This document shows positions 28,098-30,407 of a stretch of DNA of 36,296 bases, one piece after another; positions within the stretch are counted from its first letter, which is position 1; the number at the start of each line of letters is the position of its first letter. The DNA comes from Acidobacteriota bacterium (lineage in GTDB: Bacteria > Acidobacteriota > Terriglobia > UBA7540), in NCBI GenBank assembly GCA_902812465.1, contig CADDZE010000037.1:1-36296 (forward strand), written 5' to 3'. The translations under genes were made by a program, and so were the position numbers. The notes beneath the pieces are model-generated. The model did no database searches, had not been told where the DNA came from, and saw only the letters and a program-made list of their open reading frames with translations.

Positions 28098-28343
28098 ATG
28101 AATCCGGCAGGGTTTGACTTGATTACGATCCAGATCAATGGCGAATCCAGACGCGTGCCGGAAGGCCTGACCCTCGCGGGGTTGGTCGACTGGCTCCAGC
28201 TTCCTGCCGACCGTGTGGCGGTGGAGCGCAACCTTGAGGTCACGCCCCGGCACCAATGGACCTCTACCCCCATAGAGGAAGGGGACCGGCTGGAGGTGGT
28301 CCACTTCGTGGGAGGTGGCGCTGGATTGGAGGTCAACCGGTAG
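28098..28343 (+). CDS. thiS: ThiS sulfur-carrier protein with C-terminal extension
   Basis: 81 residues from ATG 28098. The beta-grasp ubiquitin-like fold of ThiS is clear: '[20 protein letters not shown]', '[16 protein letters not shown]' and '[15 protein letters not shown]'. ThiS supplies sulfur for the thiazole of thiamine through a C-terminal Gly-Gly thiocarboxylate made by ThiF and used by ThiG. Here seven residues (AGLEVNR) follow Gly-Gly-Gly, so the mature C-terminus would need proteolytic exposure, or the protein serves another role, or the stop has been lost by mutation. No thiF, thiG or thiE lies in the window, so the gene is isolated from its pathway partners. Fold call firm; functional state uncertain. 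Confidence 0.85.
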
Positions 28344-28381
28344 AGCTCGCGGGTCGAAGCAGGCACCGCCATGAGCGAGTG

Positions 28382-28406
28382 CCGGGGCCGGACGCAGACG
28401 CCCCGG
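28382..28406 (+). other. GC-rich hairpin downstream of thiS
   Basis: CCGGGGC (28382-28388) and GCCCCGG (28400-28406) form a perfect 7-bp stem with an 11-base loop, 39 bp after the thiS stop. There is no T-run, so it could be a rho-dependent end, an RNA 3' stabiliser or chance in GC-rich DNA. Confidence 0.35.
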
Positions 28407-28542
28407 GGCTACAACGTTGCCCCCATTTGTGACGAAGAGGGGATGTGCATACCGAGGAAATAAATGAGACAAAGGAAGCTTATAAGACGGCATATTGGTT
28501 CGGAGACGGTCCGCTCCGCCGAGCCGTGCCAGCCCATGTTCT

Positions 28543-28573
28543 GCTGCCTTGGGCAGCGGCTCCCGTGTTTTTT
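28543..28573 (+). terminator. Possible terminator before the repeat region
   Basis: GCTGCC (28543-28548), loop TTG and GGCAGC (28552-28557) form a perfect 6-bp stem. GAGCC upstream and GGCTC (28558-28562) may extend it into a larger structure. A six-T run (28568-28573) follows ten bases later, further than usual for an intrinsic terminator. It would end the thiS transcript just before the first repeat core. Confidence 0.3.
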
Positions 28574-28574
28574 A

Positions 28575-28621
28575 GCAAACAAAGCCGTAATGTTGCCTAG
28601 AATCAGTTGGTTACGTTTTAT
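28575..28621 (+). repeat. Repeat core 1 of 3 (47 bp)
   Basis: Begins GCAAACAAAGCCGTAATG and ends GGTTACGTTTTAT. It differs from core 2 at three of 47 positions and from core 3 at five. It is preceded by a T-run. The internal arms AATGTTGCC and GGTTACGTT can pair with one mismatch and two G:U-type wobbles. Confidence 0.9.
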
Positions 28622-28730
28622 TGGAGGGTGGCCGCGCAGTAGGGTTAAGAAAGGCCAGCCTTCTCTAGGCTTGCTCACCGTTGGGGAAGCTGCGACCTCT
28701 ACTCCGGACGAGCCGGGCGCGCGCTTATTT

Positions 28731-28777
28731 GCAAACAAAGCCGTAATGTGGCCTAGAATCAATTGGTTACATTTTAT
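28731..28777 (+). repeat. Repeat core 2 of 3 (47 bp)
   Basis: Begins GCAAACAAAGCCGTAATG and ends GGTTACATTTTAT, 156 bp after core 1. It differs from core 3 at four of 47 positions. The arms AATGTGGCC and GGTTACATT form a 9-bp stem if two G:U pairs are allowed, around an 11-base loop. The 38 bp starting at 28801 also resemble those starting at 28642 after core 1. Confidence 0.9.
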
Positions 28778-28854
28778 GGAACTTGCCAAAAGGCGGTCGT
28801 GGGTTGAGAGAAGGTTGTTGGCTTCGGGCTTGCCAACCAAAGAAGGCGCCGCCG

Positions 28855-28874
28855 CCCGTCGTTCAGTCGACGGG
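28855..28874 (+). other. Perfect hairpin between repeat cores 2 and 3
   Basis: CCCGTCG (28855-28861), loop TTCAGT and CGACGGG (28868-28874): a perfect 7-bp stem. No T-run follows. It may form part of a structured leader RNA or be an operator. Confidence 0.4.
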
Positions 28875-28897
28875 GTTGTATCCTTTGGGGGAATTTT

Positions 28898-28944
28898 GCA
28901 AACAAAGCCGTAATGTTTCCTGGAATCAAGTGGTTACATTTTAT
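28898..28944 (+). repeat. Repeat core 3 of 3 (47 bp)
   Basis: Begins GCAAACAAAGCCGTAATG and ends GGTTACATTTTAT, 167 bp after core 2 and 59 bp before the kinase start codon. The arms AATGTTTCC and GGTTACATT pair less well than in core 2, with two internal mismatches. The spacing to core 2 is not a multiple of three. Confidence 0.9.
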
Positions 28945-29003
28945 AGAAGGCAGCCGGAGGCGCCCTACCCCCCAACCGTAGATAAGCTTCGACGTATCTC
29001 TTT

Positions 29004-30407
29004 ATGGAGCTTCACGGCAAAGACTTGCTGGTAATCCTGCTGATCAAGCTGGGCGTCATCGCCTCCTTGGCCAGCGTGATTGCGCGGTTCGGCCAGTTTC
29101 GCCGCCTGATCTTTGTCGAGCAGCGCACGCCGCGACAGAAGCTGTTGTTCGCGGTGCTCTTGGGAGTGCCGTTCATGCTGGGGGTGCTGACGCGGTTGCT
29201 GGCCAAGTATCCGGGTACCGACCTGAGCCTGGAGATCACGGTCCTGGCTGGTCTGCTGGGCGGGGGCATCGCCGGGCTAGTGGTAGGTATGATGGTGAGC
29301 CTGCCAGCCGTGCTGATCCCCCACGAAATCATGGGCACGTCCAATGTGCACGAGCTGCTGGCGGCGCCGCTAGCGGTGATTTACGCGCTCGTGGCCGGTT
29401 CCGCGCGCTCCCTCTGTCCGGACAAGGAAGCCATTTGGAAATTCTCGCCCTTTATCGACCTCAGCCTCTATCGTTCTATCCGGCAGCGCTTTAAGGAGCC
29501 GGCCCTGGACTGGCAAATCCTCTTCGCGCTGATGTGCGCTTTGCTGGAGGTGATGCGGTTGACGGTGGGCCGCTTGTGGCATCAGGTGTTCTACCTGGAT
29601 TCTCCCACCACCTGGGGCAAGGTGCTGATCGTGGTGGACACGATGATCGGGATCGGCCTGCCGGTGCGCATCTGGAACTCGACCCGCATCGAGCGCAAGC
29701 TCGAGGAACAGCAACGGATGCTGCTGGAGGCGCGCATGAACGCCCTGGTCAGCCAAATCAATCCGCACTTTCTTTTCAACACCTTGAACACCGTTTCCTC
29801 CCTGATCCGCTTGGATCCCGATAAGGCACGGACCCTGCTGCTGAAGCTCTCGAATATTCTGCGGCGGCGCCTGCGCAGCGCCGGCCACTTCGTGCCACTC
29901 AAAGAGGAGTTAGAATTTATTGACGATTACCTGGACATCGAGGTCGCCCGCTTTGGGCGCGACAAGCTGCGTATCGTCAAGGAGATTGATGAAGAAACTC
30001 TCGAGATGTTCGTTCCTAGCATGCTGCTGCAACCGCTGGTGGAGAACTCGATCCGCCACGGAATCGGTCCCCGAATTGAGGGAGGAACGATCACGTTGCG
30101 CACGTGGCGTCAGAACGGACGTCTGGCCGTCGAAGTGGTTGATGATGGCGTGGGCATTCCGCTCTCGAAGCAGGGTGAGATCTACGCCTCCGGCATTGGC
30201 ATTCACAACGTCAACGAGCGTTTGAAGGTATTGTACGGCCAAGAGTACCGGCTCAAAATCGAGAGCCGGCCTGGCCTAGGCACATCGATTCAGTTCGAAA
30301 TTCCCGCGCTGGTGCCTGCCGAAGGCACGATGCAGGAGCCTGCGCGAGCCAGTGAGGTCAGGGCTTCCAGTGAGAGGCAAGGTCCCCGGGTAGGGGTAGA
30401 AGGCTGA
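29004..30407 (+). CDS. LytS-type sensor histidine kinase (5TM + His_kinase domain)
   Basis: 467 residues from ATG 29004. Residues about 8-215 contain five or six membrane helices ('LLVILLIKLGVIASLASVIA', 'LLFAVLLGVPFMLGVLTRLL', 'ITVLAGLLGGGIAGLVVGMM') of the 5TMR-LYT sensor type. The kinase core has the LytS-family H-box 'LVSQINPHFLFNTLNTV' with phospho-acceptor His255, then 'LQPLVENSIRHGIGP' (N-box, Asn348) and 'VVDDGVGIP' plus 'GIGIHNVNERLKVLYG' for ATP binding. Such kinases sense membrane or wall state and normally phosphorylate a LytTR response regulator. No regulator gene adjoins here; the next gene, 36 bp on, is an Rrf2 regulator. It is preceded by the triple-repeat region. The C-terminal 40 residues beyond the kinase fold appear disordered. 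Confidence 0.92.
   Translation: MELHGKDLLVILLIKLGVIASLASVIARFGQFRRLIFVEQRTPRQKLLFAVLLGVPFMLGVLTRLLAKYPGTDLSLEITVLAGLLGGGIAGLVVGMMVSLPAVLIPHEIMGTSNVHELLAAPLAVIYALVAGSARSLCPDKEAIWKFSPFIDLSLYRSIRQRFKEPALDWQILFALMCALLEVMRLTVGRLWHQVFYLDSPTTWGKVLIVVDTMIGIGLPVRIWNSTRIERKLEEQQRMLLEARMNALVSQINPHFLFNTLNTVSSLIRLDPDKARTLLLKLSNILRRRLRSAGHFVPLKEELEFIDDYLDIEVARFGRDKLRIVKEIDEETLEMFVPSMLLQPLVENSIRHGIGPRIEGGTITLRTWRQNGRLAVEVVDDGVGIPLSKQGEIYASGIGIHNVNERLKVLYGQEYRLKIESRPGLGTSIQFEIPALVPAEGTMQEPARASEVRASSERQGPRVGVEG

Follow-up and report, generated by a model that had tools for sequence, protein, structure and literature searches.

Dispersed intergenic repeats of bacteria are usually palindromic and are often treated as passive. 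The ERIC/IRU elements of enterobacteria and yersiniae are small dispersed intergenic repeats that are co-transcribed with their neighbours and exert an orientation-dependent effect on mRNA (PMC2229807), and REPs are palindromic (PMC3733652). The core family described here resembles ERIC/IRU in being dispersed, intergenic and possibly co-transcribed with orientation-dependent effects, and resembles REPs and REPINs in being a set of high-copy short intergenic repeats confined to some genomes. However, ERIC is palindromic and acts via RNA conformation, whereas the core has neither a palindrome nor a conserved fold, occurs in tandem and mostly points to the next gene. It also lacks the inverted repeat of REPs and REPINs, and assignment to that class was rejected on the palindrome criterion. 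By contrast with the usual picture, this family is linear and directional and lies inside operons as basic as rpoB-rpoC, and the core is preserved where its surroundings have decayed.

The window analysed is contig C37 (36,296 nucleotides) of a 3.9 Mb, 190-contig Acidobacteriota genome. A repeat search of the window located three 47-bp cores at positions 28575-28621, 28731-28777 and 28898-28944, with pairwise identities of 44/47, 42/47 and 43/47 and start-to-start spacings of 156 and 167, which are not both multiples of three. The positions are those given in the first-pass annotation, and the sequence between the cores is unrelated. All three lie on the forward strand in the 660-bp spacer (28344..29003) between a ThiS family gene (28098..28343, +; PF02597, Pfam E=2.7e-16), which is the conserved neighbour of lytS by synteny, and a LytS-type histidine kinase gene (29004..30407, +; Pfam His_kinase and HATPase_c, with a weak 5TM-LYT match). 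The third 47-bp core stops 59 bp 5′ of the kinase ATG at 29004. The thiS-lytS adjacency (28098-30407), which couples a ThiS-like protein to a LytS-type kinase, is kept in most of the family.

A DNA search of the whole genome with one core copy matched 47 places, and a sequence-only profile built from these 47 copies returned 49 cores, the two weaker of which lie 239 bp apart on contig C16, 5′ of a semialdehyde dehydrogenase gene. The 49 cores form 28 intergenic arrays (10 single, 15 double and 3 triple), with within-array spacings of 128-248 (median 162). In loci of this genome and of two relatives, the profile gave 49, 105 and 99 matches, vs. 0, 0 and 1 on reversed sequence. Recurrence of the core is not due to chance, as the 49 occurrences and the near-absence of profile matches on reversed sequence establish. 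All 48 genome matches (up to one mismatch) to the inner 15-mer ACAAAGCCGKAATGT fall inside arrays, with a single match in the reversed control; this genome-wide 15-mer search thus offers no candidate for a paired small RNA carrying a core copy elsewhere. The earlier view that the copies are ordered, non-coding and tied to the downstream gene is borne out. Its link to a signalling gene is not: LytS stands behind one of the 28 arrays, the core was found within 800 bp of 0/29 lytS orthologues in the family, and LytS-specific regulation was rejected. A literature search, for which subscription papers were mostly beyond reach, returned no description of such a repeat family, which is weak evidence of absence.

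Across the 47 copies, columns are rich in information between −7 and about +51 and fall to background on either side, giving a unit of about 57 bp. The 47-bp unit proposed earlier was therefore correctly placed and slightly too short, the conserved extent being about 57-60 bp with the left T-tract and the right TGGAAG included. At the thiS-lytS locus, the extended copies occupy 28568..28627 (a T-tract followed by CAAACAAAGCCGTAATGT-N4-TAGAATCA...GGTTACGTTTTAT), 28724..28783 and 28891..28950, all on the + strand, with genome-wide profile E-values of 5.1e-16, 5.0e-17 and 1.4e-16, and the last ends 53 bp short of the lytS start codon. From left to right, the blocks are a T-tract, a nearly invariant CAAACAAAGCCGTAATGT and, after four columns that are mostly free, TRNAATCA; three further free columns separate this from GWTACATTTTWTGGAAG. 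In BLAST comparisons between loci of this genome, homology is confined to the core and the spacers cannot be aligned. The right end of the core occurs in at least three types (TACATTTTATGGAAG, TACAAAATAACGTAGAA and TTGTAAATTTTACAC), with the same type in both copies of an array (L021, L029, L037; L035, L038, L039).

Several classes of element were rejected on these sequences. RNAalifold predicted 0 base pairs for 47 cores and 0 for 102 cores, no Rfam family reached its gathering score in the window, and the core in its context shows no excess of unpaired bases over a shuffled one, which removes an RNA hairpin or riboswitch as a candidate. No G+C-rich hairpin precedes the T-tract (mean z −0.1), so an intrinsic terminator at that tract was likewise rejected. 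With neither an inverted repeat nor a conserved fold, the palindromic element floated in the first-pass annotation does not fit. Coding repeats were rejected because the stop-free frame of the core is open over 144 nt in only 20/47 copies, which is about the expectation from stop frequency by our own estimate, and because spacings are not multiples of three. For a MITE, dispersed gain absent from orthologous sites was found; terminal inverted repeats were not (the best inverted match of the consensus ends is 9 of 12), nor was any locus-specific flank duplication, the sole signal of a target-site duplication being T runs common to nearly all copies, and the class was rejected on both counts.

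Arrays are directed at the downstream gene in 91/113 cases overall (26/28 here, and 28/39 and 37/46 in two relatives), as scored on gene calls from a simple codon-based caller of our own making. The joint significance (p=4e-11) is optimistic for the two relatives, G010 and G024, in which loci sharing a duplicated module are non-independent; the 26/28 of this genome is free of that dependence and gives p=3e-6. Exceptions include two or three arrays of this genome whose next gene is convergent, one or more of these arrays lying after a same-strand gene (lysS, L019), and about nine arrays of the relatives that appear antisense to both neighbours. By family models, the downstream genes include rpoC, sufD, obgE, metG, mutS, rseP and FtcD, a RarA-like ATPase, an EfeU/Ftr1-like permease and an OPT transporter, and further a carbonic anhydrase, SCO1, a pfkB kinase and an ABC-2 permease, among others; the upstream partners include rpoB, sufC, dxr, hpt, larC and L27. 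Arrays lie between the adjacent co-directional genes rpoB-rpoC, sufC-sufD, L27-obgE, dxr-rseP and larC-metG. The target genes make up no functional set. Hardly any of them is orthologous to a target in the relatives, which belong to another genus, and on that ground a regulon common to both genera was rejected.

The arrays were gained in this lineage after its split from its relatives, since the orthologous core-free spacers are short. Against the 660 bp of the thiS-lytS spacer here, the 25 orthologous spacers measured are 15-130 bp in 24 relatives and 425 bp in one. The rpoB-rpoC spacer is 426 bp vs. 36-201 in 29 relatives, the sufC-sufD spacer 323 bp vs. −35 to 262 in 29 relatives, and the rpmA-obgE spacer 647 bp vs. 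18-285 in 28 relatives, all of these relatives being core-free at the site. In this genome, the neighbouring spacers that lack cores, sufB-sufC and rplU-rpmA, have an ordinary length. Because the added DNA exceeds the cores, either the gained units were larger than the core and have since diverged outside it, or other DNA was gained and the cores formed within it. Across the family, the sufB-sufC spacer ranges from 121 to 1369 bp (L184-L213), far more than is usual within an operon.

G010 and G024, which are species of a different genus within the family, abound in a shorter core, AAGCYGKAATGT-N4-TDGAATCA with SWTA after it, at least 137 copies being present in one of the two and at least 149 in the other. 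This core occurs a few times in other genera of the family and is nearly absent from the other families of the class, where 3 of about 260 genomes carry one imperfect match each. In G010 and G024, cores also lie within dispersed leader modules of 0.3-1 kb with unrelated flanking genes and stereotyped spacings (56, 75 and 79 in G010; 260, 67 and 78 in G024). One such G024 element of about 0.7 kb holds 5-6 core-like repeats per copy in the leaders of unrelated genes (L077, L080, L081, L082, L087, L090, L130, L135, L142, L143, L147 and L148), and its predicted fold is not clearly better than that of shuffled columns. A third genus (G001, genus g2) has a different dispersed repeat of 143-160 bp that contains the core AAGCCAGAATGTCCTTTAGAATCA (L150:3023-3170, L151:2940-3090 and L152).

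Sigma-70 sites were scored with E. coli-type matrices at ≥11 bits within 600 bp upstream. A site on the sense strand, in most cases at a distance of 100-400 bp, precedes 29/117 arrays, vs. 3 antisense sites. Matches in the relatives lie 100-450 bp upstream of arrays, and no strong match falls inside any array of G010 or G024. Independently of these matrices, CTTGACAA shows the strongest strand bias of all 8-mers preceding the arrays of G024, being present at 22/48 loci and antisense at 0. Given the promoters upstream in relatives, the arrays are probably part of a transcribed, untranslated leader; in this genome, where only 4/28 arrays have a strong upstream match, that placement rests more on operon context such as rpoB/rpoC. 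A sigma-54 promoter was rejected on the alignment, as GG-N10-GC is not kept: the relatives have GG-N10-GG, and this genome mostly has GT for the first GG.

A directional, unstructured core has been kept next to genes such as rpoC, which suggests that it affects the downstream gene in cis. Our preferred reading, to which we assign a probability of about 0.4, is that the arrays are dispersed, tandem, directional, lineage-specific leader modules whose spacers have decayed and whose cores were retained because they act in cis, on the sense strand, on the gene that follows. Multi-core modules would have spread into leaders and operon spacers, after which, to judge from the younger modules in relatives, the module spacers would have decayed and the cores alone been retained. 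Each core would then act in cis, on the sense strand and after transcription start. In the likeliest form, a sequence-specific factor would read the nascent leader RNA or the transcribing polymerase, a mode of recognition favoured by the sense direction of the cores and their position after the promoter. Its action, whether antitermination, processing or translation enhancement, may keep a long untranslated spacer from silencing the downstream gene. Counting against the model, the downstream genes share no common function and almost no targets are orthologous between the genera, unlike a regulon; so do the arrays facing convergent genes here, the antisense arrays in relatives, the low number of strong promoter matches in this genome, and a core that is not unusually unpaired.

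One of the closest precedents is the RfaH ops/JUMPstart element, which is likewise a short linear element of untranslated leaders read in the sense direction, and GCCGTAATGT may be loosely similar to the RfaH ops sequence. The core differs in being tandem and in preceding housekeeping genes, where ops/JUMPstart leaders belong to long surface-polysaccharide operons. The counts of extra NusG paralogues, an obvious candidate class for the factor, do not follow the motif, and NusG-like proteins occur throughout the family, in genomes with and without it, which lends no support to a specialised NusG factor. A more novel version of the model, which we hold as doubtful, is a spreading leader cassette. 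Here a linear, unstructured, directional element would disperse as multi-core modules into 5′ leaders and into the operon spacers of essential genes, and would be kept there because its cores are recognised, within the nascent RNA or by the elongating polymerase, so that the downstream gene stays expressed. If true, it would represent a dispersed element of a new class and, for Acidobacteriota, a new signal that controls elongation or leader RNA. More generally, should the cores influence expression, a single repeat family would have rewired the leaders of essential genes in one lineage, and its arrays, dozens of natural replicates that can be matched to empty sites in relatives, could be used to learn how the cores act.

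The cores might instead be DNA operators. They would then be asymmetric sites, placed 3′ of the promoter, at which a transcription factor recognises direct repeats (in relatives, GGAATGT-N5-GGAATCA). The core of the relatives can be read as two 7-bp half-sites in direct repeat, like OmpR/PhoB-type operators, and the spacing of these half-sites with a 12-bp period, the alternation of near-invariant and variable columns, which is like that of protein-bound DNA, and the lack of a conserved RNA fold all favour binding at the DNA level. However, the 12-bp period and extra conserved flanks, a position downstream of promoters and the lack of a coherent regulon depart from OmpR/PhoB sites. The first half-site is degenerate here (GTAATG), the sites in relatives lie as far as 100-450 bp downstream of promoters, the target genes form no coherent set, and two or three arrays face a convergent gene. 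We consider an operator unlikely.

Also improbable, to a similar degree, is a plain mobile or dispersed repeat without host function, in which orientation would reflect either how the repeat inserts or the removal by selection of antisense insertions that do harm. The small mobile element proposed in the first-pass annotation survives in part, in that the arrays are lineage-specific gains and relatives carry dispersed modules; the turnover of target genes between genera and the occurrence of the core in the 0.3-1 kb modules of G010 and G024 and the 143-160 bp repeats of G001 fit such an origin. Against the absence of function, only about 57 bp are conserved here beside unalignable DNA, neither terminal inverted repeats nor locus-specific target duplications accompany the cores, and the fine alternation of invariant with free columns speaks for selection acting on the core itself. 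The cores are not random relative to genes, and no insertion sequence containing them was found.

Least probable is that the arrays are inserted tandem promoters for the next gene with TRNAAT as a −10 element: they are directional, lie at a promoter-like distance from start codons and include some TTATAAT copies that score as sigma-70 sites, but the expected −11 A is G in 17/47 copies here and mostly G in relatives, the conserved blocks lack −35/−10 spacing (15-19 bp), few copies match in this genome, and the G010 and G024 arrays, none with a strong match, already have canonical promoters upstream.
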